From an uncultured Bacteroidales bacterium (GTDB lineage: Bacteria; Bacteroidota; Bacteroidia; Bacteroidales; UBA932), in NCBI GenBank assembly GCA_900318565.1, contig ONLD01000013.1, forward strand, positions 1-38,254: 38,254 nucleotides of DNA, written 5' to 3'. The first letter of the stretch is position 1, and each line of letters starts with the position of its first letter. The notes below the pieces were generated by a model. The model did no database searches. It saw nothing but the letters and a program-made list of their open reading frames with translations, and was not told the DNA's origin. This document shows, one piece after another, positions 1 through 38,254 of this stretch. The position numbers and the translations under genes are program-made.

Positions 1-92
1 CGATGGGCACCCTTGCCTTTGGCTGTAACCTTCCCACTATCAGGGCGGTTTGGGGACTTGCACCCGTTAGAGTACGTTCGTGCTGGGCGAAC
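1..92 (-). mobile_element. 5' end of a group IIC (bacterial class C) intron, running off the window
   Basis: Read on the minus strand from position 92, the sequence begins GTTCGCCCAGCACGAAC, a hairpin whose 5-bp ends (GTTCG/CGAAC) pair. It continues with CTCTAACGGGTGCAAGTCC and, near the edge, GGCAAGGGTGCCCATCG. This order of elements matches domain I of class C introns as I remember it from the Oceanobacillus iheyensis intron (GCCCGGC hairpin, GGGTGAGAGTCCC, GCAAGGGTGTCC). Class C introns characteristically insert just downstream of terminator hairpins, and this one starts 2-3 nt after the T-run of the terminator at 95-125. The 5' end reads GTTCG instead of the usual GTGYG. Any reverse transcriptase/maturase ORF would lie beyond the left edge. 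No coding sequence is claimed here. Confidence 0.82.
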
Positions 93-94
93 AG

Positions 95-125
95 AAAAAA
101 GGGTGACCGCAGTGAGCGGCCACCC
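95..125 (-). terminator. Rho-independent terminator of the dNK-acyl-CoA synthetase-sugar operon
   Basis: On the minus strand a 10-bp stem (GGGTGGCCGC paired with GCGGTCACCC, one G-T pair) with a TCACT loop is followed by six T residues (positions 100-95). It lies 23 bp after the FKBP gene stop, so it ends the operon that starts near 6434. It is also the apparent target of the adjacent group IIC intron. Confidence 0.9.
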
Positions 126-147
126 TGAATGTTTCTTTAAGGAAAGA

Positions 148-951
148 TTATTTCTTCTCCTCTTCGGGCTTCGGAACGAACTTACCCACCTTCACGAGCT
201 GAACGTCGAAGATAAGGGTGGAGTTAGGATCGATACCGGGACGGCCCTGCTCGCCGTAAGCGAGGTTGGCGGGAACATAAAGCTCCACGTGGCCGCCTTC
301 ACCGATGAGCTGCATACCCTCGGTCCATCCGGCGACAACACTCTTGAGGGGGAAGCTGATAGGCTCTGCATCCTCGGCGGTCTCGTCAAACACGGTACCG
401 TCGATGAGGGTGCCCTTGTACTTCACCCACACAGTGTCAACGTCAGCGGGCTTGTTGTCATTGCCGGGCTCGATGATCTTGTACTGAAGGCCGCTCTCAG
501 TCTCCTGCACACCGGCTTTCTTGCGGTTGGCAGCAAGGAACTTGTCACCCTTATCCTTGTTCTCAAGGAGGATGTAGTTGTGGCGCTTCTCAAGATAAGC
601 GTTGAAAGCGTCGTTGATGCGGTCGGGGCTGATCTTGAACTGCTTGTTGAAATCAGGATCACGGAAGTCACCCTTGGCGGCGACGAAATCCTTCATACCG
701 GCGATAATCTTGGAATAGTTGACATCTCCGAAATTGTAGCCCTTCAGGAAAGAACCGAAATTGACACCGAGAAGGTAGCTGACGGTATCGATTTCTGCCT
801 TGGAAGGGGAATAATCCTTAAGGGTCTTGACGGCCTCATCCACGCCTTCTTTCACTGCCTGTCCGTCCACTGCGGGCTCCACCTCACCAGGTGTACAGGC
901 CACGATCGTTGCACCCAGAGCGAGTGCGAAAAGAAATTTACTTGTCTTCAT
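148..951 (-). CDS. FKBP-type peptidyl-prolyl cis-trans isomerase, lipoprotein
   Basis: 267 aa. A short signal peptide ends in the lipobox IVAC with Cys19, so the protein should be lipid-anchored in the cell envelope. An N-terminal helical segment (about residues 45-140) resembles the dimerisation region of FkpA/Mip proteins. The C-terminal FKBP domain (about 150-257) contains VKYKGTLIDGTVFDET, the VVAGWTEGMQLIGEGG core and LAYGEQGRPGIDPNSTLIF, all typical of the family. Expected role: proline isomerisation and chaperoning of periplasmic or outer-membrane proteins. It is the last gene of the minus-strand operon, 23 bp after the ROK kinase and before a strong terminator. No good -7 box is visible in the short upstream gap, so it is probably transcribed from upstream. 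Confidence 0.93.
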   Translation of the reverse strand: MKTSKFLFALALGATIVACTPGEVEPAVDGQAVKEGVDEAVKTLKDYSPSKAEIDTVSYLLGVNFGSFLKGYNFGDVNYSKIIAGMKDFVAAKGDFRDPDFNKQFKISPDRINDAFNAYLEKRHNYILLENKDKGDKFLAANRKKAGVQETESGLQYKIIEPGNDNKPADVDTVWVKYKGTLIDGTVFDETAEDAEPISFPLKSVVAGWTEGMQLIGEGGHVELYVPANLAYGEQGRPGIDPNSTLIFDVQLVKVGKFVPKPEEEKK

Positions 952-974
952 TTTTTTATACTATAAAACTGTTG

Positions 975-1934
975 TTAAATATCCCAAGCAAGAGCGGAAG
1001 CGCCGAGGATGGCGGCATCCGACTCGGAGAGGCTGGAGAAGAGCACCTTCACCTTGCCGCGCCAAAGCGACAGCAGGTTCTCGTTCATCGCATTCACGAT
1101 AGGCTCATACAGGAACTCCTTCGCACGGGCCAGGCCGCCGAAAAGCACGATGGCCTCAGGGGCGGAGAAAGCCACGAAATCTGCGAAGCTGCGGCCAAGC
1201 AGCGTGCCTGTGAACTCGAAAATCTCCTTCGCGGCCTTGTCGCCGGCCTTGGCGGCCTCGTACACATCCTTGGAAGTGATGTTTTCGCGCAGGCGGAGGA
1301 GAGTCGGCTCCTCGGGATGCTGCTCGAGCCACTCCTGGGCGCTGCGGGCCACTCCGATAGCGGAGCAGTACGCCTCCAGGCAGCCCTGCTTGCCGCAATT
1401 GCAGCTGCGGCCGCCGCGCACGGCACAAGTGTGGCCGAGCTCACCGGCGAAGCCGTCGTGGCCATAGACCACCTTGCCGTCGATGACGATACCGCTTCCC
1501 ACGCCGGTGCCCAAGGTAATCATAATGAAGTCCTTGAAGCCCTTGGCCGCACCGTAGGTCATCTCGCCCACGGCGGCGGCGTTGGCATCATTGGTCAGCG
1601 CCACGGGCAGGCCGTCCATAGCTTCGGACAGCATCTTGGCAAAAGGTATGTTCTTCTCGTGGGCCCAGGAGAGATTCGGGGCGTCCTTGATCTCGCCGGT
1701 GTAGTAGTTGCCGTTGGGGGCTCCCACGCCAATCCCTCGTATCTGGCCGTTCAGGCCGGCATCGGAGATAAGCTTGCGGAGAGTCTGGGCCAGCGCCTCC
1801 ACGAAATCACGGGCGTCCTGGTGGTTGTTGGACACAAGTATGGTCTGTGCCAGCACCTCGCCGCGGGCATTCACGACGCCGCTCTTAGCGGTCTGCCCGC
1901 CTATGTCTATACCAAGTACGTAAGGCTTTTCCAT
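975..1934 (-). CDS. ROK-family sugar kinase (glucokinase-like)
   Basis: 319 aa, normal for the family. The N-terminal phosphate-binding motif GIDIGGQTAKSG is at residues 8-19. The sugar-binding/catalytic block TNDANAAAVGE is at 114-124, with Asp116 the likely general base. The ROK zinc signature starts at GELGHTCAVRGG, with His168 and the cysteines of the CxCxxxxC pattern (Cys178, Cys180, Cys185). The protein is cytosolic and phosphorylates a hexose with ATP; glucose, N-acetylglucosamine or N-acetylmannosamine cannot be told apart by eye. It starts 4 bp after the sugar permease stop, which suggests uptake and phosphorylation of the same sugar. Confidence 0.92.
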   Translation of the reverse strand: MEKPYVLGIDIGGQTAKSGVVNARGEVLAQTILVSNNHQDARDFVEALAQTLRKLISDAGLNGQIRGIGVGAPNGNYYTGEIKDAPNLSWAHEKNIPFAKMLSEAMDGLPVALTNDANAAAVGEMTYGAAKGFKDFIMITLGTGVGSGIVIDGKVVYGHDGFAGELGHTCAVRGGRSCNCGKQGCLEAYCSAIGVARSAQEWLEQHPEEPTLLRLRENITSKDVYEAAKAGDKAAKEIFEFTGTLLGRSFADFVAFSAPEAIVLFGGLARAKEFLYEPIVNAMNENLLSLWRGKVKVLFSSLSESDAAILGASALAWDI

Positions 1935-1938
1935 AACT

Positions 1939-3210
1939 CTACTCCACGGGGATGTCTTTATTTACGTTCTTGCAACCTGCCAGCGCATAGAAAATGAGGT
2001 AGCACAGGCAGACGATGAGCAGCCAGTAGCTCTGGATGGAGCCGACGTGGTCTGCAATGAGGTTCTGGACGAACGGGATGATGCCGCCGCCGCAGACCAG
2101 GGTCATAAATATGCCGGAAGCGGGAGCCGTGTACTTGCCGAGTCCCTCAGCCGCAAGGTTGAAGATGGAACCCCACATAATGGAGGTGCAGAGGCCGCAG
2201 AGCATCACGAAGATGAGCGACAGGGGCACCTGGGAGTCGCCGAACTTGATTGCCACGCTCTCGGGGATGAACACCACGCAGATGAGGAAAAGGATAGCTA
2301 CGGCGGAAGTCACGAGAAGCATATTCTTGCTGCTGACCTTGCCGGCGATGGGAGCGCCCACGAGACGTCCGATAAGCATACAGAACCAGTACGCGCCGAT
2401 CATAGTGCCGGTCAGGGCCGGACCCACCCAGTCAAGACCGGAGAAATACACGTTGGCGGTGTTGGGGATGCCGACCTCGATGCCCACATAGAAGAAGATG
2501 GCGATGGCGCCGAGCACGAAGTGACGGAACGAAAGCGGACCGTACGGATCCTTGACGGCCTTGCCTGCGAGGCGCGCGGCCTTCTCATCGGCAGTCTCCA
2601 TATGAGGCTCGGGGATGTTGGTGAGCATAATCACCACGAACGCAAGCGCGAAGATAGCCATTGCGATAATCATCACGGGAGCGGCTTTGGCCACGCTGGC
2701 CTCGGCAATCGTGCCGCCCACCAGCCAGCCCACGAACACGGGAGCGATGGTGCCGCCGATGGAGTTGCAGGAACCGCCCCACTGAATCAGCTGGTTACCC
2801 TTGTTGCCGCCGCCGCCGAGGGTGTTGAGCATAGGGTTCACCACGATATTGAGCATACACATTGAGAAACCGGCTACGAAGGCGCCGGCCACATAGACTG
2901 CGAACGACTCGACATATCCGGAGAGGAACTGGATTCCCACTCCGACAAAGCCGATGACCACTGCGAGAAGGGACGTGAACTTATATCCCTTGCGCTTGAG
3001 GATAAGGCCTGCGGGAATACCCATACAGGCATAGGCGATGAAATTTGCAAGCGAACCGAGCTGAGACAGAGCCTTGGAAGCCCCGAACTGGTTGGTCACG
3101 ATGACACCCATAGAGCCGGCGAGGTTCGTGACGAACGCTATCATAAAGAACAGCGCGAACATCACGACGATCGCGGGAGTGTAGCTTTTGCTTGCGGCGG
3201 TTTTAGTCAT
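1939..3210 (-). CDS. Sugar:proton symporter, MFS FHS family (glucose/galactose/fucose permease type)
   Basis: 423 aa with about twelve hydrophobic segments, giving an inner-membrane major facilitator. Features of the FHS family (FucP, GluP, NagP) are the early FVTNLAGSMGVIVTNQFG segment, a cytoplasmic LKRKGYK loop after TM2, a GGGGNKGNQLIQWGGSCNSIG stretch and a second-half MIGAYWFCMLIGRLVGAPIAG motif. It lies directly before a ROK kinase (4-bp gap) and 7 bp after the acyl-CoA synthetase, all on the same strand. The pairing supports sugar import followed by phosphorylation. The actual substrate is an inference I cannot narrow. Confidence 0.9.
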   Translation of the reverse strand: MTKTAASKSYTPAIVVMFALFFMIAFVTNLAGSMGVIVTNQFGASKALSQLGSLANFIAYACMGIPAGLILKRKGYKFTSLLAVVIGFVGVGIQFLSGYVESFAVYVAGAFVAGFSMCMLNIVVNPMLNTLGGGGNKGNQLIQWGGSCNSIGGTIAPVFVGWLVGGTIAEASVAKAAPVMIIAMAIFALAFVVIMLTNIPEPHMETADEKAARLAGKAVKDPYGPLSFRHFVLGAIAIFFYVGIEVGIPNTANVYFSGLDWVGPALTGTMIGAYWFCMLIGRLVGAPIAGKVSSKNMLLVTSAVAILFLICVVFIPESVAIKFGDSQVPLSLIFVMLCGLCTSIMWGSIFNLAAEGLGKYTAPASGIFMTLVCGGGIIPFVQNLIADHVGSIQSYWLLIVCLCYLIFYALAGCKNVNKDIPVE

Positions 3211-3217
3211 ACGAGTA

Positions 3218-5134
3218 TTATTTAAGTGATTGAATATTCTTTTCGTTGTAAAGTTCCTTGCCTTCCGCTGTCATAGCGTACTCGATGCGGTCCGCGTAGA
3301 ATTTCTCCACCTTGCCGCGCACCATCTTGGAGGTGGTGTTGAGCATACCGTTCTGCTCGGTGAAAGGAGTCTCGCCCACGATAATCGCTGCAGGCAGCCA
3401 CTTCTCCGGGAAGAGGCCGGCGTGGCGTCCGCCGGGACGGTAGGAATCCACCTCGCCCTTGATGATGTCAAGCTGAGCCTTCAGGCCGGCCTCGGAAGCG
3501 GGATCCAGGCCCTTTTCCTTGACGGCCTCGGCCAGGGCGGCCTTGTTGGGTATCACGAGCACCACGGTCCAGGGGCTCTGGTTGTTGTGCAGCACGGAGG
3601 CCTCGATGAACTTGGAGCCGTCGGCCAGGCTGTCTTCGTAGCCCTCGGGAGAGTACTTCTCGCCGTCGGAGGAGATCAGCAGGCTCTTGAAGCGGCCGGT
3701 CACGTAGAGGTAGCGCGGGTCTTCGGGGCAGATGTAGCCGCGGTCGCCGGTATGCAGCCAGCCGTCGATGATGGTCGAGGCGGTGGCTTCAGGGTTCTTC
3801 CAGTAGCCGGCCATCACGTTTCCGCCGCGGATGACGATTTCACCGGTCTGTCCGTGCGGCACTTCGCGGCCATCCTCGTCGCAGATCTTGATGTCCATAG
3901 GCTGCACGGTGCGGCCAGACGAGCCGAAGCGGGCGTGGCCGCTGGAATTGGCGCAGATCACGGGGGTGGCCTCGGTCAGGCCGTATCCCTGGAAAATAGG
4001 CATTCCGATGGCGCAGAAGTAGCGCTGCAGCTCGATGTCGAGCAGGGCTCCGCCGCCGATGAAGAACTTCATACGGCCGCCGAAACTCTCGCGGACGCCC
4101 TTGAATACGAGCTTGTCCATCAGGTCCTTGATGGGTTTGCGCCACCACAGCTTCCAGGCGGGCTTGCCCATATTGTAGTATTCGCGGTTGTACTTGATTG
4201 CGTTGTCCAGGGCGAACTCATAGAGTTTCTGCACCTTGGGACCTTTTTTCTTGATGCCGGCCTCGATGTTCTTGCGGAAGTTGCGGGAAATGGCGGGCAC
4301 GGAAAGCATCACGTGCGGACGCACCTCGCGGATGGCCATAGGGATGTTGCGGAGCATCGTGATGGCGTTCTTGCCGCCGGGTACGGTGGCGATGCTGCCG
4401 CCGTTGCACATCATAAAGTAGAATCCCGCCACGTGCGCGAAGCAGTGGTCAAGAGGAGTGATGATGAGCATCACGTCTCCCCTCTCTATCTTCACGACGG
4501 AATTGCACTGCACGATGTTGGATGTATAGTTGTTGTGCGTCAGAAGGATGCCCTTGGGATCGGCGGTCGTGCCGGAGGTGTAGGAAATGTTGGCGTAATC
4601 GCCGGGCTGCACGGAAGCGATGCGATCTTCGAGGTCCTTCAGATTGGTCTTGATGTATTCCTCACCCATCTTGCGCAGCTCGCCGAAATACATTTCGCCC
4701 TCCTGCAGGGGAAGGTCGTCCAGCACTATCACCTTTTCGATGGCGGGGCACTGGCCGATGACGCGGCGCACTTTGTCAATCTGGCTCTCGGAAGCTATGA
4801 TGTAGCGGGAATCGGAGTGGTTGATACGGAAGGTAAGGTCGTAGTCGGACTCGAGTTTGAAGGAGAGAGGGACGTCCACGCCGCCGGCGTAGAGAATTCC
4901 CAGCTCACTGAATATCCATTTGTTGCGGCCTTCGGAGATAAGAGCCACTTTCTCCCCCTTCTTAAGTCCAAGGGCCATAAAGCCGGCCGCCATAATGCGG
5001 CCTTCCTCACGGGTCTGCCTGAATGATGTTTCAGTCCAGGTGTCGCCGATTTTCTCACGGAGGAAAGTATCATCTCCGTACTTTTCAGCGTAATGATCGA
5101 CAAAGTCGATGATGGTCAGAATCTGCTTGTCCAT
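3218..5134 (-). CDS. Long-chain fatty acid--CoA ligase (AMP-forming)
   Basis: 638 aa, the usual size for FadD15/FAA-type synthetases. The ATP-binding P-loop YTSGTTADPKG is at residues 185-195, the A5-type motif GYGLTEATP at 383-391 and the hinge region with HTGD at 461-464; VTGRFKSLLISSDGEKYSPE follows. It activates fatty acids to acyl-CoA through an acyl-adenylate. The large insert between motifs is typical of the bacterial very-long-chain/FAA1 subgroup. It is probably cytosolic or peripherally membrane-bound. It sits 15 bp after the second deoxynucleoside kinase and 7 bp before the sugar permease, so this is a functionally mixed operon. Confidence 0.93.
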   Translation of the reverse strand: MDKQILTIIDFVDHYAEKYGDDTFLREKIGDTWTETSFRQTREEGRIMAAGFMALGLKKGEKVALISEGRNKWIFSELGILYAGGVDVPLSFKLESDYDLTFRINHSDSRYIIASESQIDKVRRVIGQCPAIEKVIVLDDLPLQEGEMYFGELRKMGEEYIKTNLKDLEDRIASVQPGDYANISYTSGTTADPKGILLTHNNYTSNIVQCNSVVKIERGDVMLIITPLDHCFAHVAGFYFMMCNGGSIATVPGGKNAITMLRNIPMAIREVRPHVMLSVPAISRNFRKNIEAGIKKKGPKVQKLYEFALDNAIKYNREYYNMGKPAWKLWWRKPIKDLMDKLVFKGVRESFGGRMKFFIGGGALLDIELQRYFCAIGMPIFQGYGLTEATPVICANSSGHARFGSSGRTVQPMDIKICDEDGREVPHGQTGEIVIRGGNVMAGYWKNPEATASTIIDGWLHTGDRGYICPEDPRYLYVTGRFKSLLISSDGEKYSPEGYEDSLADGSKFIEASVLHNNQSPWTVVLVIPNKAALAEAVKEKGLDPASEAGLKAQLDIIKGEVDSYRPGGRHAGLFPEKWLPAAIIVGETPFTEQNGMLNTTSKMVRGKVEKFYADRIEYAMTAEGKELYNEKNIQSLK

Positions 5135-5149
5135 TATTCGTTTTATAGG

Positions 5150-5773
5150 TTATTTATCTTCAGGGAAAAGTCCATAGAGCTTCGCGTCTATCATATTGGT
5201 AATCAGCTCGAAGTCCTCGGGCCTGTTGCCGAACTTGATGTTGTCGGCGTCCACTACCAGCAGGTTGCCTTTGTAACCGCCGATCCAGTCTTCGTATTTC
5301 TCGTTCAGGCCTGTCAGGTAGTCGATGCGGATGCTCTTTTCGTATTCACGGCCCCTCTTCTGTATCTGGGAGATGAGGTTGGGAATGGAAGAGCGCAGGT
5401 AAATCAGCAGGTCGGGAAGACCCACCAGGGACATCATCAGGTCGAAGAGGTCGGTGTAGTTTTCGAAGTCGCGGGTGCTCATCAGGCCCATATCGTGCAG
5501 GTTGCGGGCGAAAATGCGGGCGTCTTCGTAGATGGTACGGTCCTGGATTATCACTTTCTCGGACTTGGAAATCTCGAGGATATCCTTGAAACGCTTGTTG
5601 AGGAAGTAAATCTGCAGGTTGAATGACCAACGCTCCATATCCTCGTAGTAATCAGCAAGATAGGGGTTGAAGTCAACCGGTTCGAACTTGGGCGTCCACC
5701 CGTAGTGGGCGGCGAGCATCTTGGTCAGCGTGGTCTTTCCGCTGCCTATATTTCCAGCAATCGCTACGTGCAT
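5150..5773 (-). CDS. Deoxynucleoside kinase, second of a tandem pair
   Basis: 207 aa. The P-loop GNIGSGKTT is at residues 7-15. The catalytic QDRTIYEDARIF block (the family's DR[ST] motif) and the arginine-rich lid QKRGREYEKSI follow. This is the dCK/dGK/dAK family, which phosphorylates deoxynucleosides with ATP for nucleotide salvage. It is closely similar to the upstream copy (5807-6421), with blocks such as TLTxMLAAHYGWTPKFE and SQIQKRGREYE shared, so the pair arose by duplication. The gap between them is 33 bp. In lactobacilli, tandem genes of this family encode a heterodimeric enzyme; whether that applies here is unknown. Base specificity cannot be read by eye. Confidence 0.92.
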   Translation of the reverse strand: MHVAIAGNIGSGKTTLTKMLAAHYGWTPKFEPVDFNPYLADYYEDMERWSFNLQIYFLNKRFKDILEISKSEKVIIQDRTIYEDARIFARNLHDMGLMSTRDFENYTDLFDLMMSLVGLPDLLIYLRSSIPNLISQIQKRGREYEKSIRIDYLTGLNEKYEDWIGGYKGNLLVVDADNIKFGNRPEDFELITNMIDAKLYGLFPEDK

Positions 5774-5806
5774 AACATCAAGTATTACAAACTACAAAGA
5801 TAACAA

Positions 5807-6421
5807 TTATTTGAATAGGCCGTAGAGTTCTGCGTCGATTTTGTCCGTAATGGAGGCAAAATCCTCCGGATTGTGCTCGAAATCCAGGGAGTCCGCATCA
5901 ATCACGAGGAGCCTTCCCTCGTACTCTCCGATCCACTTTTCATAGTGTTTATTGAGCCCGTCCAGGTATTCCAAGCTTATGCTCTGCTCATACTCGCGGC
6001 CCCTCTTCTGGATCTGGGACACCAGGTGCGGGACGGAAGACTTCAGGTATATCAGCAGGTCCGGCGGATTCACCATAGACATCATAAGGTTGAAAAGCTG
6101 CATATAAGTGTCGTAGTCCCTCTCGGAGAGGTTGCCCTGCTCGCGGTTGTTCTCCACGAAGATGTGCACGCCTTCCAGAAGGGTGCGGTCCTGGATAATC
6201 ACGTCCTTGCTGGAGGCTATCTCGAGCACGTCCTTGAAGCGCTGCGCAAGGAAATAGGTCTCGAGGTTGTAGGACCAGCGCGGGATGTCCTTGTAATAGT
6301 CTTCCAGGTATGGGTTGTATGTCACGGCCTCGAATTTCGGGGTCCATCCGTAATGGGCGGCAAGCATACGAGTGAGGGTCGTTTTGCCGCATCCGATATT
6401 GCCAGCTATTCCTATGTGCAT
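5807..6421 (-). CDS. Deoxynucleoside kinase, first of a tandem pair
   Basis: 204 aa from the ATG at 6421. The frame is open to 6472, but that stretch contains the operon promoter (6441-6473), and the sister gene also begins directly with MHVAIAGNIG, so the shorter start is preferred. The P-loop GNIGCGKTT is at residues 7-15, with the DR motif in IIQDRTLLEG and the lid QKRGREYEQSI. It is a cytosolic deoxynucleoside salvage kinase of the dCK/dGK family and the first gene of the six-gene minus-strand operon. It is divergent from the hydrolase gene at 6481, sharing a 59-bp promoter region. Confidence 0.92.
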   Translation of the reverse strand: MHIGIAGNIGCGKTTLTRMLAAHYGWTPKFEAVTYNPYLEDYYKDIPRWSYNLETYFLAQRFKDVLEIASSKDVIIQDRTLLEGVHIFVENNREQGNLSERDYDTYMQLFNLMMSMVNPPDLLIYLKSSVPHLVSQIQKRGREYEQSISLEYLDGLNKHYEKWIGEYEGRLLVIDADSLDFEHNPEDFASITDKIDAELYGLFK

Positions 6422-6440
6422 TTGTTTGAAACTTGTCTTA

Positions 6441-6473
6441 CAAAAATAAATAGATTTTCGTATTTTTGCCAAA
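6441..6473 (-). promoter_or_regulatory. Promoter of the dNK operon
   Basis: On the minus strand, TTTG (6473-6470), a 21-bp spacer and TATTTTTG (6448-6441) form a full match to the Bacteroidota -33/-7 consensus. With the -7 centred as usual, transcription would start near 6437, about 16 nt before the ATG at 6421. Confidence 0.75.
6461..6468 (+). promoter_or_regulatory. -7 element for the MBL-kinase-recO unit
   Basis: TATTTTTG is a perfect TAnnTTTG 12 nt before the ATG at 6481, giving a leader of about 9 nt. No well-spaced TTTG is seen upstream (the nearest TTG, 6433-6435, is 25 bp away). It overlaps the divergent dNK promoter region, so the two units may compete for polymerase. Confidence 0.6.
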
Positions 6474-6480
6474 TTAATTT

Positions 6481-7167
6481 ATGGAGATTTACAGATTCAT
6501 ATTCAACCGTCTCGAAGAGAATACGATGGTTGTGTGCGGGGAGCCGGGACGCTGCGTGGTCGTGGACCCCGGCTACCGTTCGGACGAAGAGCGCGACGCC
6601 CTCGAGGGCTGCCTGGAGAAGCATTCCCTCAAGCCTGAAGCAGTGCTGCTGACGCACGGGCATATGGACCACATTTTCGGCGTGGCCGACTTCCAGAAGC
6701 GGCACGGCGTACCCGTGTATATGGCCCCCGAGGAGCGCAGCGTCGTGGATTATTACCAGCGGGTCACCAAGTTCGGGCTGCCGGCCGCCGACCCGGGGTT
6801 CACCACCACCGACATCAGTGACGGCTCGCTCATAGAGGCCGCTGGGCTCTCTTTCCGCGTCATCACGACTCCCGGCCACTCCCCCGGCGGCGTGTGCTAC
6901 CTCGAAGAGGCGCAGAAAGCCATCTTCACCGGCGACACCCTTTTCGCGGGAGCCATCGGCAGGACTGACCTCTACGAGGGTGACTACGACGCCCTCATAA
7001 AGTCCATTATGGAGAAGTTGATGCCCCTGGACGGGGACATAGAAGTTTTCCCGGGCCACGGCGGCCCAAGCAGCATAGGCACGGAAAGGGCCACCAATCC
7101 CTTCCTTGAACCGTTCAACGAAAGGGAAGAGATTCCCGAACTTAACGAATCAACAGTAAATGACTAA
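6481..7167 (+). CDS. Metallo-beta-lactamase-fold hydrolase (YcbL/glyoxalase II-like)
   Basis: 228 aa. The metal-binding signature THGHMDH is at residues 58-64, with further ligands His133 (TTPGHSPGG), Asp152 (FTGDTLF) and a late His in FPGHGG. The order and spacing match the short glyoxalase II-like/YcbL group of single-domain hydrolases that act on thioesters or related small molecules. No signal peptide is present, so it is cytosolic. It is the first gene of a plus-strand unit and overlaps the next gene by 8 nt (the ATGACTAA at 7160-7167 holds both a start and a stop). The true substrate is unknown. Confidence 0.9.
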   Translation: MEIYRFIFNRLEENTMVVCGEPGRCVVVDPGYRSDEERDALEGCLEKHSLKPEAVLLTHGHMDHIFGVADFQKRHGVPVYMAPEERSVVDYYQRVTKFGLPAADPGFTTTDISDGSLIEAAGLSFRVITTPGHSPGGVCYLEEAQKAIFTGDTLFAGAIGRTDLYEGDYDALIKSIMEKLMPLDGDIEVFPGHGGPSSIGTERATNPFLEPFNEREEIPELNESTVND

Positions 7168-8155
7168 AATTGAAGCAGCCCGGCAGGAGTACAAAGACTG
7201 GTGCTCCGCCATCGGAATCGACACCCTGGAGAAAGTAAACGAAGTAGTCGACAGCGGAAACGCCATCGAACTCATCAACCTCTGTGAAGCCCGGCAGGAA
7301 CGGAAGTACGCCGAAGCGGCCGACCAGATATTCTGGCGCCGCAAGAGTTGCGGCATCGTGATGATGTCCGGCCCCAGTTCCAGCGGCAAGACCAGCAGTT
7401 CCTTACGTATCGCGCAGCAGTGCCGCGTACTCGGCATCACGCCCAAGGTGATAGAACTCGACAACTACTTCAAGCCCCGCGAGGAGACTCCCAAGGACGA
7501 AAACGGCGAATACGATTTCGAGGCGCTCGGCGCGATGAACGTGGACCTGCTCAACGAGAACCTCAACGACCTGCTTGCAGGACGCGAGGTCATCATCCCA
7601 AAATTCGACTTCAAGGAAGGACGTTCCATTATGGATCCTTCGCGCACTATGCGTCTGGAGAGCAACGACATCCTGTTTATGGAAGGCATCCACGCCCTGA
7701 ATCCCGCCCTTACCTACAACGTGGACCAGAAGCGCATCTTCCACGTGTACATCTCCGCCCTTTCGGCCCTGCCCGGAGGCGAAAAAGTCCACAACAGCAC
7801 CACCGACAAGCGCCTCATCCGCCGCATCGTAAGGGACAACCGCGTGCGCGGCATCAGCCCCGAGGACAACATCCTCCGCTGGCCTTCGGTGCGCCGCGGC
7901 GAGACCTTCAACATCTTCCCGTTCGAGGAGAATGCCGACGTGGTGTTCAACTCCTCCACCCTCTACGATATGCCGCTGCTCAAGTACTACGCCGAGCCGC
8001 TCCTGTACGGCATTTCGGAGTCCTCGCCCGCCTATCCCAAGGCTTCCTCACTGCTGGAATTCCTCAAGAAGGTGTCGGCCCTGAAGCCCTCCGAGATAGC
8101 GGCTGTGCCCCCGACATCCATTATGCGCGAATTCATCGGCGGGCAGACCCTGTAG
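7160..8155 (+). CDS. Uridine kinase/phosphoribulokinase-family nucleoside kinase, short form
   Basis: 331 aa. The P-loop GPSSSGKT is at residues 71-78, followed by a LDNYFKPREETPKDENG block, LFMEGIHALNP, and a C-terminal PPTSIMREFIGG typical of the Bacteroidota nucleoside kinase. The relatives I know are about 550 aa, with an N-terminal TGS and threonyl-tRNA-synthetase-like editing region. Here only about 60 residues precede the kinase domain, and the start lies inside the preceding gene, so the N-terminal domains are truly absent, not mis-started. Probable role: nucleoside phosphorylation in salvage. It is translationally coupled to the upstream hydrolase. Confidence 0.85.
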   Translation: MTKIEAARQEYKDWCSAIGIDTLEKVNEVVDSGNAIELINLCEARQERKYAEAADQIFWRRKSCGIVMMSGPSSSGKTSSSLRIAQQCRVLGITPKVIELDNYFKPREETPKDENGEYDFEALGAMNVDLLNENLNDLLAGREVIIPKFDFKEGRSIMDPSRTMRLESNDILFMEGIHALNPALTYNVDQKRIFHVYISALSALPGGEKVHNSTTDKRLIRRIVRDNRVRGISPEDNILRWPSVRRGETFNIFPFEENADVVFNSSTLYDMPLLKYYAEPLLYGISESSPAYPKASSLLEFLKKVSALKPSEIAAVPPTSIMREFIGGQTL

Positions 8156-8161
8156 CCTCCG

Positions 8162-8812
8162 ATGGTCCACGCCTCCGAGTTCATCCTTCTCCAGGGCACC
8201 AAAGTGGGCGAAAAGTCCCTGGTGCTCCACACCCTGAGCCGCCGGTGGGGACGGCGCAGTTTCCTCACGAGCGTGGGCAGGAAGAGCCCTATGGCCCTTT
8301 TCCTGCCGCTCTCGCTGCTTGAAGGAGAGGTGATCGAGAACGCCAGGTCGGAGCTGTGGCGCCTGCGCGAAATCAGCGCCGCGCATCCCCTTGGCGGCAT
8401 CAGGGGGGACCTGCACAAAAACACTATGACGCTCTTCCTCAGCGAAGTGCTCTACCGCACTGTCCGGGACGGCGAAGGGGACGAAGAGCTTTACGACTGG
8501 TGCAGGCGCAGCATATTGACGCTGGATGCGCTGGAGACGGATTTTTCCAATTTCCACCTGCGGTTCCTGCTGGAATTCGCCACGGTGATGGGCTTTTCCC
8601 CCAGCGCAGAAGACCTCGCGCCTTTCGCCGGCGAGCATTTCTCAAAAGTGCAGCAGTTGCTGAAAGGCAGCGCCGCGGATTCTCTGCTCGTGCCAATGAA
8701 CGGAGCCGAGCGTAATGAGGTGGCCTCGCTGCTCCTTGACTACATAGGCTGGCACACCGAGACCAAGATTGCGGTCCGGTCGCTGGGTGTGTTGAGGGAG
8801 CTGTACAAATAA
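8162..8812 (+). CDS. recO: DNA repair protein RecO
   Basis: 216 aa, slightly short for the family. The N-terminal OB-fold region reads EFILLQGTKVGEKSLVLHTLSRRWGRRSFL, matching the start of Bacteroidota RecO proteins. The rest is the helical domain with LFLSEVLYRTVRD and DALETDFSNFHLRFLLEFATVMGF. RecO works with RecR to load RecA onto SSB-coated single-stranded DNA. It starts 6 bp after the kinase stop and ends 4 bp before the convergent uvrA stop. The usual zinc-finger cysteines of the C-terminal region are not evident. Confidence 0.85.
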   Translation: MVHASEFILLQGTKVGEKSLVLHTLSRRWGRRSFLTSVGRKSPMALFLPLSLLEGEVIENARSELWRLREISAAHPLGGIRGDLHKNTMTLFLSEVLYRTVRDGEGDEELYDWCRRSILTLDALETDFSNFHLRFLLEFATVMGFSPSAEDLAPFAGEHFSKVQQLLKGSAADSLLVPMNGAERNEVASLLLDYIGWHTETKIAVRSLGVLRELYK

Positions 8813-8816
8813 GCCT

Positions 8817-11561
8817 CTAAAGCATATCCCGCAGATACGGTCCCGTCACTGAAGCAGGGTCGGCGGCAATCTGCTCCGGGGTCCCCTTCGCCACCACGCG
8901 CCCGCCGCCGCGTCCGCCTTCCGGACCCATATCCAGAATATAGTCCACGCTCTTCAGGATGTCGGGGTTGTGCTCAATAATAATGACTGTATTCCCCTGG
9001 TCCACAAGCTTCTGCAGGACTTCGAGCAAGGTCTTTATGTCTTCGAAATGCAGGCCGGTGGTCGGCTCGTCCAGCATATACAGGGTGTTGCCGGTGGCTT
9101 TGCGGAACAGCTCGGCCGCCAGTTTCATACGCTGGCTCTCGCCGCCGGAAAGGGTCACTGAAGACTGTCCCAGATGCACATAGCCCAGGCCAACGTCCAC
9201 GAGCGCCTTCAGCTTGGGGGCGATTTTGGGATGGGACTTGAAGAATTCGTAGGCCTCCGAAATGGGCATATCCAGCACCTCGCTGATGTTCTTCCCCTTG
9301 TAATGCACCGCAAGGGTGTCTTCCTTGTAGCGCTTGCCGCGGCAGGCGTCGCAGGGCACCGTCACCGACGGCAGGAAGTTCATTTCCACCACTTTAAGCC
9401 CGGCGCCTTTGCACTCTTCGCAGCGGCCGCCGGCCACGTTGAACGAGAACCGGCCCGCCTTGAAGCCGCGCACCTTGGCGTCAGGGGTCTCCTCGAAGAG
9501 ACGGCGGATGTCGTCGAATACGCCGGTGAAGGTGGCGGGATTGGAGCGGGGCGAGCGCCCGATGGGGCTCTGGTTGATTTCTATGACCTTGTCTATGTTC
9601 TCGACGCCCTCTATGTCCCTGTAAGGCAACGGCTTCTGCTTGAGGTGGTAGAAGCGTCCCTTGAGGATGGGCATCAGGGTCTCGTTGACGAGCGAACTCT
9701 TGCCGCTGCCCGACACGCCGCTGACGCCGATGAAGCACCCGAGCGGGAAGCTGACGTCGATGTCCTTGAGGTTGTTGCCGGATGCGCCGCGTATGGTAAG
9801 CATCTTCCCCGAGCCGGGACGGCGCACCGCAGGCACTTCGATTTTGCGCTTGCCCAGCAGGTAGGAGGCCGTGACCGAATCGCCGCAGATCTTGTCTGCA
9901 GGGCCGTTGTAACACAGCCGTCCGCCAAGTACGCCGGCGCCGGGACCGATGTCCACGAGGTGGTCGGCGCTGCGCATCGTCTCCTCGTCGTGCTCCACTA
10001 CGATGACGGTGTTGCCCTCGTCGCGCAGCTTCTTCAGCGAGGCTATGAGCTTGCGGTTGTCGCGCTGGTGCAGGCCGATGGACGGCTCGTCGAGTATGTA
10101 AATCACGCCCACAAGCTTGGAGCCGATCTGCGTGGCGAGGCGGATACGCTGGCTCTCGCCGCCGGAGAGGGATGCCGTGGCACGGTCCAGCGATAGGTAC
10201 TCAAGTCCCACGTCCACAAGGAATTGCAGCCTGTCGGAAAGCTCCCGCAGCACGTCCCGTGCCACCGCTTTCCCGCGCCCGGTGAGTTTACCTTGCAGGG
10301 AGTGGACCCAGGCAAGCAGGTCGGTGATTTCGAGCGTGGAGACCTCGGCGATAGTGCGGCCGTCGATCTTGAAGCAGGAGGTCTCCTCCTTGAGGCGCGT
10401 GCCGTGGCACTGCGGGCACACGATGCGGTCCTCGACGTCTTCGACGACGCCTTCCCAGGTCGCCATCTGCGTGAGGCTGCCTTCACCTATGCGGTACAGG
10501 TCGTCGGAGCCGTACACTATCTGCGAGACGAACTCCTGAGGCAGCACTTCGATGGGGTCGTAGAGGGAGCAATTGTGCTTCCGCGCCATTGCACGCACGA
10601 TTTCGAACTTGCGGTTGTCCCTTACGCGGCCGAGCGGCACGATGCCTCCTTCGGCTACGGACATACGCGGGTCAGGGATGATGGTCTCCAGGCTCACGTC
10701 GGGCACGGATCCAAGGCCCTTGCAGTAAGGGCAGCAGCCTTCGGGCGAGTTGAAGGAGAAGCTGTGCGGAGCGGGCTCCTGGAGCGACACGCCCGATTCC
10801 GGGTCCACGAGGTGCTTGGAAAAGTGGCGCAGGGACCCGTCTTCCACGTTCAGCACCGCCACGGAGCCTTTGCCGATTCCGATGGCGTTCGACACTGAGC
10901 GGCGCACGCGAGCCTCGTCGCCCTCGCCGGGCTTGAGCTTGTCCACTACGAGTTCTATGAAATGGGCCTTATAGCGGTCCAGGGCGTCGATTTCGGCAAG
11001 TTCGGAGATTTCCCCGTCGATGCGGATCTGGGTGTAGCCGCGGCGGCGCATCTGCTCGAAAAGCTCGCGGTAATGGCCCTTGCGACCGCGCACCAACGGG
11101 GCGAGCACTATGCACTTCTTGCCGCTGTATTCCGACATTATCAGGTCCACAATCTGGGCGTCGGTGTAGCGCACCATCTCTTTGCCGCTGACGGGAGAAT
11201 AGGCGGTCGAGGCCTTGGCATAGAGCAGGCGGAGGAAGTCGTAGATTTCCGTGATGGTGCCGACCGTGGAGCGCGGGTTGGCGCTGGTGGTCTTCTGCTC
11301 TATGGCGATGATTGGGCTCAGGCCGTCGATGCTTTCCACGTCGGGCTTCTCCAGGATGCCCATAAAGTGCTTGGCATAAGGAGAAAGGGTGTTCATATAG
11401 CGGCGCTGTCCCTCGGCATAGATGGTATCGAACGCCAGCGAGCTCTTGCCGCTGCCGCTCAGACCCGTGATGACAACATATTTGCCCCGGGGGATGTCCA
11501 CGTCGATGTTTTTCAGGTTGTGCGCCCTCGCGCCCCGTATCTTGATGACTTCTTCTGCCAT
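8817..11561 (-). CDS. uvrA: Excinuclease ABC subunit A
   Basis: 914 aa, close to full family length. There are two ABC ATPase modules: Walker A GLSGSGKS at residues 33-40 and a second GVSGSGKSSLV in the C-terminal half. Both LSGGESQR signatures are present. Zinc-binding cysteine pairs are visible in CCPYCKGLG/CPQCHGTR and in GRCEECKGAG/PCDACRGKRY. It recognises bulky DNA lesions and loads UvrB in nucleotide excision repair. It is monocistronic here, divergent from queC, and its 3' end abuts recO with a 4-bp gap and no terminator. The stop is TAG. Confidence 0.97.
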   Translation of the reverse strand: MAEEVIKIRGARAHNLKNIDVDIPRGKYVVITGLSGSGKSSLAFDTIYAEGQRRYMNTLSPYAKHFMGILEKPDVESIDGLSPIIAIEQKTTSANPRSTVGTITEIYDFLRLLYAKASTAYSPVSGKEMVRYTDAQIVDLIMSEYSGKKCIVLAPLVRGRKGHYRELFEQMRRRGYTQIRIDGEISELAEIDALDRYKAHFIELVVDKLKPGEGDEARVRRSVSNAIGIGKGSVAVLNVEDGSLRHFSKHLVDPESGVSLQEPAPHSFSFNSPEGCCPYCKGLGSVPDVSLETIIPDPRMSVAEGGIVPLGRVRDNRKFEIVRAMARKHNCSLYDPIEVLPQEFVSQIVYGSDDLYRIGEGSLTQMATWEGVVEDVEDRIVCPQCHGTRLKEETSCFKIDGRTIAEVSTLEITDLLAWVHSLQGKLTGRGKAVARDVLRELSDRLQFLVDVGLEYLSLDRATASLSGGESQRIRLATQIGSKLVGVIYILDEPSIGLHQRDNRKLIASLKKLRDEGNTVIVVEHDEETMRSADHLVDIGPGAGVLGGRLCYNGPADKICGDSVTASYLLGKRKIEVPAVRRPGSGKMLTIRGASGNNLKDIDVSFPLGCFIGVSGVSGSGKSSLVNETLMPILKGRFYHLKQKPLPYRDIEGVENIDKVIEINQSPIGRSPRSNPATFTGVFDDIRRLFEETPDAKVRGFKAGRFSFNVAGGRCEECKGAGLKVVEMNFLPSVTVPCDACRGKRYKEDTLAVHYKGKNISEVLDMPISEAYEFFKSHPKIAPKLKALVDVGLGYVHLGQSSVTLSGGESQRMKLAAELFRKATGNTLYMLDEPTTGLHFEDIKTLLEVLQKLVDQGNTVIIIEHNPDILKSVDYILDMGPEGGRGGGRVVAKGTPEQIAADPASVTGPYLRDML

Positions 11562-11590
11562 TGCTCTGCCCTGGTCCTTTTAATAATATG

Positions 11591-11598
11591 CAAAGATA
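11591..11598 (-). promoter_or_regulatory. -7 element of uvrA
   Basis: On the minus strand this reads TATCTTTG, a perfect TAnnTTTG, about 30 nt before the uvrA ATG. No convincing -33 TTTG is seen. It lies back to back with the queC -7 element, 13 bp apart. Confidence 0.6.
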
Positions 11599-11611
11599 GA
11601 AACAAAATTCT

Positions 11612-11619
11612 TATCTTTG
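11612..11619 (+). promoter_or_regulatory. -7 element of the queCDE operon, nearly leaderless
   Basis: TATCTTTG matches the TAnnTTTG consensus exactly and ends 6 nt before the queC ATG at 11626. If transcription starts four bases after the final G, the leader is about 3 nt. This leaves no room for a preQ1 riboswitch, which in other bacteria often controls queuosine genes. Confidence 0.65.
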
Positions 11620-11625
11620 CAGCCT

Positions 11626-12267
11626 ATGAGAGCAATCCTGATTTATTCCGGCGGACTGGACAGCACCACGCTCCTGTACGAATACAAAGACAGCATAGAA
11701 CTGGCCGTATCCTTCGACTACGGCGCCAAGCACAATTCCAAGGAGCTCGCTTTTGCCCGCGAGCACTGCAAGTTGCTGGGCATTCCGCACCGCATCATAC
11801 CCCTTGACTTCATCGGAAAGTATTTCCGGAGCGACCTTCTCCTCTCCGGAGGTGACATCCCAGAAGGCAATTATGCCGAGGACAATATGAAATCCACCGT
11901 GGTCCCCTTCCGCAACGGCATTATGCTGGCCGTTGCCGCAGGGCTGGCGGAGAGTTTCGAGATGGACACCGTCCTGCTCGCCAACCACGGCGGCGACCAC
12001 GCCATCTATCCCGACTGCCGGCCGGAGTTCATCGAAGCCTTCGACCGCGCAGCCTGCGCAGGCACCTACAACGGAGTGCGCATCGTCTCGCCCTACTGCA
12101 ACCTGACCAAGCGCGACATCGCCCTCCGCGGACGCAAGCTGGGCATCGACTATTCCCGCACCTGGTCCTGCTACAAGGGCGGCGAAAAGCACTGCGGCCG
12201 CTGCGGCACCTGCACCGAACGAAAAGAAGCCCTCGCAGGCTTCGACCCCACCGAATACGAAGAATAA
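11626..12267 (+). CDS. queC: 7-cyano-7-deazaguanine synthase QueC
   Basis: 213 aa. The PP-loop ATP pyrophosphatase motif SGGLDS is at residues 8-13, and the C-terminal zinc site uses Cys182, Cys190, Cys193 and Cys196 (CGRCGTC). QueC converts 7-carboxy-7-deazaguanine to preQ0 with ATP and ammonia. The ATG at 11626 was chosen because a perfect -7 promoter element ends 6 nt upstream; a TTG three codons earlier would overlap that element. It is the first gene of queC-queD-queE, the three enzymes that make preQ0 from the GTP-derived precursor. Confidence 0.95.
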   Translation: MRAILIYSGGLDSTTLLYEYKDSIELAVSFDYGAKHNSKELAFAREHCKLLGIPHRIIPLDFIGKYFRSDLLLSGGDIPEGNYAEDNMKSTVVPFRNGIMLAVAAGLAESFEMDTVLLANHGGDHAIYPDCRPEFIEAFDRAACAGTYNGVRIVSPYCNLTKRDIALRGRKLGIDYSRTWSCYKGGEKHCGRCGTCTERKEALAGFDPTEYEE

Positions 12268-12273
12268 GAGCCT

Positions 12274-12606
12274 ATGTATTACGTCTGCAAACGATTGGAA
12301 ATATCTGCAGCCCACTCCCTTATGCTTTCCTACGAGAGCAAGTGCGAGGACCTGCACGGCCACAACTGGATTGTCAAGATCTACTGCAAGTCCGAGGCCC
12401 TCAACCAGGACGGTATGGTCACGGACTTCACCCTTATCAAGAAGAAGATATCTTCGGCCCTGGACCACAAGAACCTCAACGACGTGCTCCCTATGAATCC
12501 CACGGCCTAGAACATCGCGCGCTGGATCTGCGACAACACCCCTAATGCATATAAAGTAGAGGTGTGGGAGTCGGAGATGAATATGGCCGCATACGAACGG
12601 GACTAG
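12274..12606 (+). pseudogene. queD: queD (6-carboxytetrahydropterin synthase) interrupted by an in-frame TAG
   Basis: Reading from ATG 12274, residues 1-78 are good QueD: zinc ligands His14, His28 and His30 (in LHGHN), the catalytic Cys24 and DHKNLND. Codon 79 is TAG (12508-12510). Without it the same frame runs on to the TAG at 12604-12606 as NIARWICDNTPNAY and ends EMNMAAYERD, giving a normal 110-residue QueD. The family has Glu at this point (NPTAENIA), so a single GAG to TAG change explains it. The downstream half shows no other damage and queE still starts on the original stop (TAGTG), so the change looks recent or is a sequencing error. TAG is an ordinary stop elsewhere in this window (uvrA, pbpC), which argues against recoding. 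Confidence 0.85.
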
Positions 12607-13178
12607 TGTACCGGGTCAACGAAATATTCTATTCGCTCCAGGGCGAGGGCTACTGGACGGGGACGCCTATGGTCTTCGTCCGGATGAGCGGCTGCAATCT
12701 CCGCTGCCCCTTCTGCGATACCGACCACGCGGCATTTTCCGAAATGAGCGCCACTCAGATTGTGGACGCGGTCCGGCAGGCCGGGGCGGATTGCCGGAGG
12801 GTTTGCCTTACCGGCGGCGAGCCGTCGCTGCAGCTGGACCCGGCACTGGTGGAGGCCCTGCATTCCGCAGGATTCCTCATCCACATCGAGACCAACGGCA
12901 CGAGGCCGCTTCCGGAAGGTCTGGACTGGATTACGCTCAGTCCCAAGGCCGATGTCCCCGGGATCAAGGGGGACGGGAGCGTCGTCCTCTCCGAAGCCGA
13001 TGAAGTCAAGGTCGTCTATCTGGGAGAGGACGTCGAAAAATGGGCCCTGATGCCCGCCCGCTGGCATTTCCTCCAGCCCTGCTCCTGCAGCAACACCTCC
13101 GAGGCCATCGACTACATCCTCCGCCACCCCCACTGGCGCCTCTCCCTCCAGACCCACAAATACCTCGACATCCGCTGA
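12606..13178 (+). CDS. queE: 7-carboxy-7-deazaguanine synthase QueE (radical SAM)
   Basis: 190 aa from the GTG at 12606, which overlaps the ancestral queD stop by one base (TAGTG). The frame is open to a GTG at 12564, but MYRVNEIFYSLQGEGYWTG is the conserved family N-terminus, so the later start is preferred. The radical-SAM CX3CX2C cluster site is Cys30, Cys34 and Cys37 (GCNLRCPFCDTDHA), with the glycine-rich LTGGEPSLQ motif after it. QueE converts 6-carboxytetrahydropterin, the QueD product, to 7-carboxy-7-deazaguanine. It is the last gene of the operon; the transcript continues through repeat array 1 to the terminator at 13651. Confidence 0.94.
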   Translation: MYRVNEIFYSLQGEGYWTGTPMVFVRMSGCNLRCPFCDTDHAAFSEMSATQIVDAVRQAGADCRRVCLTGGEPSLQLDPALVEALHSAGFLIHIETNGTRPLPEGLDWITLSPKADVPGIKGDGSVVLSEADEVKVVYLGEDVEKWALMPARWHFLQPCSCSNTSEAIDYILRHPHWRLSLQTHKYLDIR

Positions 13179-13197
13179 CCCCCGTCCCGGCCGCCCG

Positions 13198-13585
13198 CCG
13201 TGTGCAAAAGCGGCCGTTCCGCACACGGGACGCGGGAAATCGCGGCGGCCGGGTGTAAAAGCAGCCGTTCCGCACACGGGACGCGGGAAATCGCGGCCGC
13301 CGGGTGTAAAAGCAGCCGTTCCGCACACGGGACGCGGGAAATTGCGGCGGCCGGGTGTAAAAGCGGCCGTTCCGCACACGGGAGACGGAAAATTGCGGCG
13401 GCCGGGTGCAAAAGCGTCCGTTCCGCACACGGGACGCGGGAAATTGCGGCGGCCGGGTGTAAAAGGGGCCGTTCCGCACACGGGAGACGGAAAATTGCGG
13501 CAGCCGGGTGTAAAAGCGGCCGTTCCGCACACGGGAGACAGATAATTGCGGCCGCCGGGTGTAAAAGGGGCCGTTCCGCACACGG
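13198..13585 (+). repeat. Tandem array 1: eight copies of a 51-bp repeat
   Basis: Unit starts (GTGYAAAAG) fall exactly every 51 bp at 13202, 13253, 13304, 13355, 13406, 13457, 13508 and 13559, the last copy ending after 27 bp. Each unit has an invariant 15-bp core, CCGTTCCGCACACGG, at unit position 13. Before it is a variable triplet, and after it one of two spacer forms: a GACGCGGGAAAT type (copies 1-3 and 5) or a GAGACGGAAAAT type (copies 4, 6 and 7). Units end in a GCGGCNGCCGG block. The array opens with CCGTGTGC (13198) and closes with its reverse complement GCACACGG (13578-13585). As 51 is a multiple of three, long reading frames appear in most frames; I regard them as artefacts. Confidence 0.95.
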
Positions 13586-13650
13586 TCTGCCGTTACAGCC
13601 GGGTCCAGCGAAAAAATCGTAGAAAAGTTTATTGTTATTGCTGTCCTACA

Positions 13651-13681
13651 GGCCTCCGACGTGCGTCGAAGGCCGTTTTTT
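13651..13681 (+). terminator. Rho-independent terminator after queE and array 1
   Basis: The stem GGCCTCCGAC / GTCGAAGGCC (one internal mismatch) with loop GTGC is followed by GTTTTTT. It would end the queCDE transcript, so array 1 forms most of that mRNA's 3' untranslated region. The rest of the intergenic stretch, 13586-13650, holds nothing I recognise. Confidence 0.85.
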
Positions 13682-13723
13682 CATATAAGCGTTGCAAAAC
13701 GGATTAAAACGCTTATTTTTTCT

Positions 13724-13731
13724 CATCTTTG
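13724..13731 (+). promoter_or_regulatory. Possible -7 element of the Rpn-like nuclease gene
   Basis: CATCTTTG matches TAnnTTTG in all but the first base and would give a leader of about 18 nt before the ATG at 13753. No well-spaced TTTG is visible upstream. Confidence 0.45.
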
Positions 13732-13752
13732 CAGGGACCAAACAACACTGCT

Positions 13753-14640: not shown

Positions 14641-14680
14641 GCTATTCAACCGGAGCATTACTTTCCCCTATTGGCGGTGG

Positions 14681-22470: not shown

Positions 22471-22475
22471 TGCTG

Positions 22476-37347: not shown

Positions 37348-37383
37348 AGTCGTATATTTGTTTGCTATTTTCGATATAACTTA

Positions 37384-37391
37384 CAAATATA
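37384..37391 (-). promoter_or_regulatory. -7 element of the gpmI operon
   Basis: On the minus strand this reads TATATTTG, a perfect match, giving a leader of about 33 nt before the gpmI ATG. No clear -33 box. The 93-bp gap between the lipoprotein stop and gpmI shows no clear terminator. Confidence 0.6.
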
Positions 37392-37440
37392 CTGCTTTTT
37401 TTCGTATTCTCTGCTTCCGGGAGGCCTTGCACGGGTCCAA

Positions 37441-38070
37441 TCACTCAGTCCGAAGGAAATCGTAATTATGGGGGTTATCTATAGGGCATCTGTTATAGAT
37501 ATCTATCCGACCGTTTGTGCAATATATTGTATCACATTTGTTAAACGGTATTTCCGTGCCGGAATTTGGAATCTTTTTGCATTCAAAACAAACTGAGAAC
37601 GACACATCACCCTGCCCTTTTTCCAGCCAGAAGACTAAGTCTTTTGTGCTTCCGGGCATCATTTCTCCTGCCGGGTAAAGCCAGACATCCGAGAGTGAAG
37701 AATAATACTTCTTGCCCGCAACAAAAAATGTCGTATCAGAAGAGAACCGCGCTTCGTATAAGATGCGATTATTGCTATCAAGTCTATCAAGGCTATTAAG
37801 TACACCGGGGGATACGAGATTATTGAACACGAAATGAACCTGAAGCCTGTCTTCCGGGGCGCTGAAACTCGGCTTTCTATAGTTTTGTCCTCTAGACAAC
37901 GAATAGTGAACCGGGTCGTGCTCTGTATATTCGAATCTTTCTCCGTTCAATTCATATTCTACGCTATAATAGACCTCCCACGGCCAGTCAATCTTGGCAT
38001 TTATAGCATTGCAGCCACTGACCAGTATCAGTGACACGCTCAACGACAATAAACCTTTTATTCTTCTCAT
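37441..38070 (-). CDS. Hypothetical lipoprotein
   Basis: 209 aa from the ATG at 38070; a GTG two codons upstream overlaps the -7 promoter box and is rejected. The N-terminus is a lipoprotein signal ending LVSGC (Cys20). The mature part has no motif I recognise: mixed beta-like sequence with several Tyr/Phe, and four late cysteines (FECKK, KCDTIYC, RCPI). Base composition is clearly lower in GC than the rest of the window and codon use is more AT-rich, which suggests a lineage-specific or acquired gene. It carries no CATG. Confidence 0.8.
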   Translation of the reverse strand: MRRIKGLLSLSVSLILVSGCNAINAKIDWPWEVYYSVEYELNGERFEYTEHDPVHYSLSRGQNYRKPSFSAPEDRLQVHFVFNNLVSPGVLNSLDRLDSNNRILYEARFSSDTTFFVAGKKYYSSLSDVWLYPAGEMMPGSTKDLVFWLEKGQGDVSFSVCFECKKIPNSGTEIPFNKCDTIYCTNGRIDIYNRCPIDNPHNYDFLRTE

Positions 38071-38075
38071 ATTCA

Positions 38076-38083
38076 CAAATATA
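38076..38083 (-). promoter_or_regulatory. -7 element of the hypothetical lipoprotein, nearly leaderless
   Basis: On the minus strand this reads TATATTTG, a perfect match, ending 5 nt before the ATG at 38070, predicting a leader of about 2 nt. No -33 box is seen. Confidence 0.58.
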
Positions 38084-38254
38084 AGTCTTTTTTTATTCTG
38101 GCCTAATGCTTTTATTCAAGGCATCAGCCGCGTGGCCGGCAAGAGGCTATACAACAGCACATTACGACTTTTGGTTGCACGCGAAATAACGCAAGCAAAA
38201 TTAGGAAACAACTGATGTTCAGGGACTTGTGCGCCACGGGCAATTGTCTTTTCC
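38084..38254. other. Unassigned right edge, lower GC
   Basis: After the lipoprotein promoter, the last 171 bp hold no gene I can support. Short open stretches exist on both strands and run off the edge (minus-strand frames ending near 38116 and 38133 could be the C-terminus of a gene beyond the window), but none shows a recognisable motif. Confidence 0.4.

Follow-up and report, generated by a model that had tools for sequence, protein, structure and literature searches.

We studied a stretch of 38,254 nucleotides from an uncultured Bacteroidales bacterium (the window, meaning the whole stretch of DNA analysed), in which the tetranucleotide CATG is almost absent. The window is contig 51 in an assembly of 2.31 Mb with 104 contigs and a completeness of 96.5%, here called genome G000; its two sister species are represented by genomes G295 and G289. 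The features on which the analysis draws are listed below (ORF, open reading frame).

1..38254, no strand: core-genome stretch nearly free of CATG (1 observed, 127 expected)
975..24737, no strand: block of genes compared site by site with G295 (11 genes) and G289 (8 genes), in which every aligned sister CATG is replaced
8817..11561, minus strand: UvrA gene, source of the genus tree, with 0 CATG where the sister species have 8 and 7
13197-13585: 51-bp tandem repeat array of 7.6 copies, on one side of the transposase ORF
13729..14640, plus strand: PDDEXK_2 (PF12784) nuclease-family transposase ORF (PF12784 match, E 5.7e-43), between the 51-bp tandem repeat arrays
13772..13775, no strand: sole CATG in the window, close to where the PDDEXK_2 transposase ORF begins
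14674-15035: 51-bp tandem repeat array of 7.1 copies, on the other side of the transposase ORF
15106..16281, plus strand: SGNH hydrolase gene, with 0 CATG where the orthologue of G295 (protein identity 95.4%) has 9

The first-pass annotation, made from the letters of the window alone, had reported a single CATG at 13772-13775, where it estimated about 140, together with about five CTAG. Counting confirmed the single CATG and yielded exactly 5 CTAG. A second-order Markov model, based on the di- and trinucleotides of the window itself, gave an expectation of 127.06 CATG (ratio 0.008, z -15.3), so that the near-absence was borne out. CATG stood far below expectation and had the lowest ratio of observed to expected counts among all 136 strand-collapsed tetranucleotides. 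For CTAG 51.8 were expected (ratio 0.10), and GATC occurred 52 times versus 145 expected (ratio 0.36).

Synonymous codons were then shuffled 300 times within 22 called genes, which span 31,389 bases with overlapping starts untrimmed; this set excludes some ORFs, among them the transposase ORF at 13729-14640 holding the sole CATG. These genes contain no CATG, versus a mean of 129 and a minimum of 113 after shuffling. TGCA (131 versus 115) and GATG (130 versus 129) showed no depletion, TATG was elevated (174 versus 83), and both GATC (38 versus 137) and CTAG (2 versus 18) were low. The claimed specificity for CATG thus held in part: CATG is the lowest of the 136 words, with TGCA and GATG normal, but GATC is low as well and CTAG very low. 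The base preceding in-frame methionine (Met) codons was G in 95 cases, T in 116, A in 23 and C in none, although C is the third base in 5,080 of the 10,441 codons, about half. This matches the earlier observations that no Met codon follows C despite the dominance of C-ending codons, and that TATG and GATG are common. As both the Markov model (1 versus 127) and synonymous shuffling (0 versus 129) show, chance and codon composition can be rejected as explanations.

The depletion is not local. In 516,389 bases of the same assembly we found 67 CATG versus 1,654 expected, and the pattern RYCATGRY, which we used for genome-wide comparison against its reversed pattern as a control, occurs 18 times in the whole assembly versus 917 times in G295 and 564 times in G289. 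Four stretches hold 51 of the 67 CATG, and two of the four carry restriction islands: contig C32, which bears a DpnII-type restriction system, has 20 CATG versus 57 expected, and a stretch of contig C66 with an EcoRII-type nuclease, a C5 methyltransferase and Vsr has 9. The fetched part of contig C45 has 15. The fourth, a stretch of contig C102 (L257), has 7, of which 4 lie inside one ORF whose start resembles an IS110-type transposase. On C32, an ORF presumably encodes a phage-type integrase; in locus L083 (positions 1-15700), the DpnII-type system and this integrase-like ORF adjoin the 3' end of a putative mnmE ORF. Two ORFs adjoining the DpnII-type system (L083 5069-5599 and 5559-6173) had no Pfam match. 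The older part of the genome thus has almost no CATG left, and DNA that looks younger, as judged from its gene content, is spared. In the window, the transposase ORF between the two repeat arrays is probably a mobile insertion, which would fit the presence there of the only CATG.

Depletion varies among relatives. At 80 related loci obtained by protein search, all from Bacteroidales and many with titles pointing to rumen or gut, the ratio of observed to expected CATG ranged from 0.05 to 1.11. Other strongly depleted records were L036 (4 of 74 expected), L028 (10 of 100) and L001 (7 of 76). The depleted L001 and the near-normal L004 (87 of 103) are equally near to the window, each with 86% iPGM identity.

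A tree of UvrA groups G000 with G295 and G289 (support 100/100), with G294 on a long branch (0.79). Over much of the window both sister species have the same genes, and the fetched sister stretches are near normal for CATG, with 92 of 101 expected in G295 and 42 of 58 in G289. When the genes were aligned, none of the 86 CATG of G295 (11 genes) and none of the 36 CATG of G289 (8 genes) was kept in G000; the same was true for 16 aligned CATG of G285, a more distant relative. The sisters have 40 of 88 CATG in common. A complete lack of retention is not by itself unique to CATG: GTTA (0 of 15) and TAAC (0 of 18) were likewise never kept relative to G295, nor were ATAA (0 of 19), ATTA (0 of 15), GGTT (0 of 34) and GTTA (0 of 21) relative to G289. 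CATG is set apart by its larger count and by its near absence from the genome. The comparison shows that the depletion arose on the branch to G000 after its split from the two sister species.

The replacements reveal how CATG was lost. At the 86 sites of G295 we found TATG 46 times and GATG 8 times, all preceding Met, CACG 10 times where the His codon CAT stands before G, and CCTG 9 times, 7 of these where xCA stands before TG. CATA was found only once. It had been proposed that CATG might be methylated at C and lost by C-to-T change, and the raised TATG count and the predominance of TATG among the replacements agree with this. However, the CACG, CCTG and GATG sites cannot be explained by C-to-T or G-to-A change, and the single CATA also speaks against decay. 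Moreover, fourfold xxC codons preceding ATG changed to G as well at positions where G000 and G295 conserve both residues (GTC to GTG three times, GCC to GCG twice, ACC to ACG once). Twofold xxC codons can leave CATG silently only as TATG, whose excess is therefore expected without decay. The replacements track the silent options of each codon, which argues against C-to-T decay as the main cause and fits selection on the word itself; we consider the decay explanation highly improbable, and this part of the earlier proposal was not supported as the main route.

Another explanation would be a preference in codon pairs or translation against C before ATG, without avoidance at the DNA level. Met codons indeed show the most visible effect. 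Relative to G295, xxC codons were kept in 0 of 51 cases before ATG versus 336 of 416 before other A-starting codons (Fisher p 1.5e-32). The loss also extends to the other frames, where CAT was kept in 0 of 10 cases before G versus 11 of 23 before other bases, and xCA in 0 of 8 cases before TG versus 3 of 15 before other T-starting codons, the latter being a small contrast. In addition, 15 kb of intergenic DNA contain 2 CATG versus 35 expected, with TGCA (63 versus 60) and GTAC (38 versus 38) at expectation. The intergenic counts depend on crude gene calls, as 4 of 13 sample CATG lay outside any called gene and 2 of these in counted spacers. A translational preference is therefore hardly credible as the cause, and it is strongly supported that selection acts on CATG as a DNA word.

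Two Type II systems, either of which might be considered as the agent, were recognised in G000: the DpnII-type system (nuclease PF04556, 352 bits) and the EcoRII-type system (PF09019/PF09217). GATC is low across the 516 kb of the assembly (768 versus 2,066 expected), as a GATC system would cause. The known sites of the DpnII and EcoRII families are, however, GATC and CCWGG, and both restriction islands still hold CATG and thus look young. On these two grounds we rejected the resident systems, which are very unlikely to have purged CATG. In the sister stretches, GATC reaches 60 of 79 and 34 of 53 expected, versus 52 of 145 in the window, with the DpnII-type system located on C32.

The pattern is probably the footprint of a Type II restriction system specific for CATG, that is, restriction-site avoidance. 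The depleted word is a palindrome, its loss exceeds what composition and codon use account for and affects all frames and intergenic DNA, and recent-looking DNA is less depleted. A resident system of this kind would cut any CATG escaping methylation, and mutants silently losing CATG would be favoured until almost none remained. We infer that the agent was a restriction system, whether NlaIII-type or an unrelated one sharing that site. Orthodox Type II systems are described as causing avoidance of their own sites, and avoidance in a genome that lacks the cognate system may, on this account, be left over from one since lost (Rusinov et al. 2015, PMC4687349). G000 resembles those cases in having a depleted short palindrome and relatives that differ; unlike them, its loss is almost complete and falls on a single branch, later than its separation from two sisters. 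The main text of that paper does not mention CATG. The papers retrieved on CATG under-representation or restriction and on CATG methylomes of Bacteroides described no such depletion in their titles or the openings of their abstracts.

Systems with this site have been described. NlaIII recognises CATG (PMC6191088), as does the related iceA1/hpyIM system of Helicobacter (PMC13340068, PMC4687069). UpaP162 of Ureaplasma parvum is also a CATG system, whose nuclease has, according to the authors, no homology to known enzymes (PMC6191088). UpaP162 shows that CATG cutters unlike NlaIII exist; yet the U. parvum genome carrying it has 1,450 CATG (PMC6191088), unlike the near-absence in G000.

PF05315 (ICEA), the Pfam family of the iceA-type nuclease, was read from its name and the literature as standing for NlaIII-type cutters. 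Matches over the cut-off were found in 3 of 299 genomes of the family (G286, G291 and G184) and in 1 of 393 genomes of the order (G604). In the order sample, ranked by eye, G604 has the lowest CATG/control ratio (14/354), and four genus-mates have 588-820 RYCATGRY. The three family carriers rank 5, 29 and 45 of 298 for depletion (one-sided Mann-Whitney p 0.003). The cassettes of G604 (L294, 715-3191) and G291 have the nuclease between two methyltransferase genes (assigned by Pfam in G291, by likeness in G604), in the order methyltransferase, ICEA nuclease, D12-type methyltransferase. These cassettes resemble NlaIII and iceA1/hpyIM, though both complete ones have two methyltransferase genes. 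CATG is missing from the cassettes of G604 (0 of 6.7 expected) and G291 (0 of 8.9) and from the part available for G286 (0 of 4.3), but not from the part examined in G184 (3 of 4.3). An NlaIII-type system thus looks to be a sufficient agent, judged on few carriers and with no correction for relatedness. The cassette nuclease had one partial match in plasmids (38.8% identity over 57% of the query; 72,556 records), none in phages (50,697 records) and none among solved structures at E <= 0.1, and no NCBIfam name was found for it or its D12 methyltransferase.

Several results weigh against a CATG restriction system as the cause. The Mann-Whitney test includes three carriers only and ignores relatedness; G291 (0.44) and G184 (0.60) are only moderately depleted; and matches below the cut-off were left out of the test, namely G113 of the family (18.9 bits, CATG/control 1.31) and G428 (440/788) and G487 (319/264) of the order. 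In G000 itself, unlike in the NlaIII and iceA1/hpyIM systems, searches for these two cassette enzymes found nothing: there was no PF05315 nuclease in the readable part of the assembly (E <= 0.001) and no NlaIII-type D12 methyltransferase, PF02384 and PF07669 methyltransferases not having been searched. The D12 and N6/N4 matches of G000 all belong to the DpnII-type system, and its sole C5 match adjoins the EcoRII-type nuclease and Vsr. The proposal of a CATG restriction system therefore stands as to selection on the word and the association of NlaIII-type cassettes with depletion in relatives, but the expected enzymes were not found in its own genome. No PF05315 or cassette D12 match was reported for the sisters G295 and G289; the cassette is present in the genus-mates G286 and G291. 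Finally, nine of 298 family genomes have a CATG/control ratio below 0.12 (G176, G000, G111, G213, G286, G192, G160, G174 and G004), and eight of them, G000 included, lack the NlaIII-type cassette, which only G286 has. That each of these eight lost such a system very recently is hard to assume.

Scans for D12, N6/N4 and C5 methyltransferases covered 15 genomes each, picked for depletion, with no undepleted genomes for comparison. Among the nine, D12 matches occurred in 2 (G000, G286), N6/N4 matches over the cut-off in 4 (G000, G286, G213, G174; G111 had one below the cut-off) and C5 matches in 5 (G000, G286, G160, G192, G176). The N6/N4 gene of G213 adjoins a MamI-type nuclease. The comparison of C5 methyltransferases of depleted genomes comprised four proteins from G000 and G286 only, leaving out G160, G192, G176 and G283. 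G286 had 11 C5 matches, some of them pieces of one gene; the next highest number among the 15 genomes was 2.

The eight cassette-free genomes also speak for an agent other than a classical restriction-modification pair, still active in G000 and the other depleted lineages; this might be a nuclease with another form of self-protection, a non-methyl DNA modification or an enzyme cutting CAUG at the RNA level. One case is G004 (1,615,540 bases fetched; listed completeness 99%), which had no PF02086, PF01555 or PF00145 match. It contains 329 CATG, most 5-kb bins having 0-2 and a few bins many. Nine of its ORFs of at least 150 residues have an [NDS]PP[YFW] motif. Three are DNA methyltransferases, HsdM and two of the Eco57I/N6_Mtase type. 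The genes of the latter two contain 4 and 2 CATG, one of the proteins having been scanned over 982 of 1,255 residues; the other six ORFs we take, from their first residues, to be RNA- or protein-modifying or unrelated. The motif search found no long-resident Type II methyltransferase in G004. Near-zero CATG in the core likewise favours an active agent, since it means that selection either still operates or stopped only very recently. On the other hand, an unprotected CATG nuclease should kill, and the 67 CATG in 516 kb of G000 and the 329 of G004 contradict a nuclease without protection. An RNA-level target is disfavoured by the intergenic depletion (2 versus 35), though spacers may be transcribed, and the known NlaIII-type carriers show the same depletion and are sufficient in principle. 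A non-classical agent is accordingly rather unlikely. It is unlikely too, but a tentative idea to bear in mind, that several Bacteroidales lineages, G000 included, are kept almost free of CATG by an active agent that is not a recognisable restriction-modification pair, either a CATG enzyme with an undescribed protecting modification or a mobile system that assemblies miss.

Returning to a CATG-specific Type II restriction system, the finding is real and strong and is explained in kind, while the agent in G000 is not recognised among the assembled genes. It may have been lost very recently, lie on DNA outside the assembly or belong to an unrecognised or unsearched family, and we would place most weight on the first two together. 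Between the sisters, CATG turnover is 0.81 per unit of fourfold distance, with a sister-sister fourfold distance of about 0.97. If selection has ended, we estimate that no more than about 0.02-0.03 changes per fourfold site have accumulated since. The figure is rough, as the Jukes-Cantor correction was applied close to saturation and the CATG still present were counted as regained.

The near-complete loss on one branch, beside near-normal sisters, is a direct record of a genome's response to sequence-specific attack, in which all 86 compared sites changed, for the most part through the silent mutation that happened to be available. Genomes with this footprint and no known enzyme are places to seek undescribed CATG-specific defence systems.

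Some further observations concern the surroundings of the transposase ORF. The UvrA and SGNH hydrolase genes (8817-16281) are each flipped relative to both sister species, with gene order unchanged, and the repeat-flanked transposase sits between them. Elsewhere in the genome, contigs C40 (L093) and C25 (L091) show weaker similarity (68-73%) to the 51-bp repeat.

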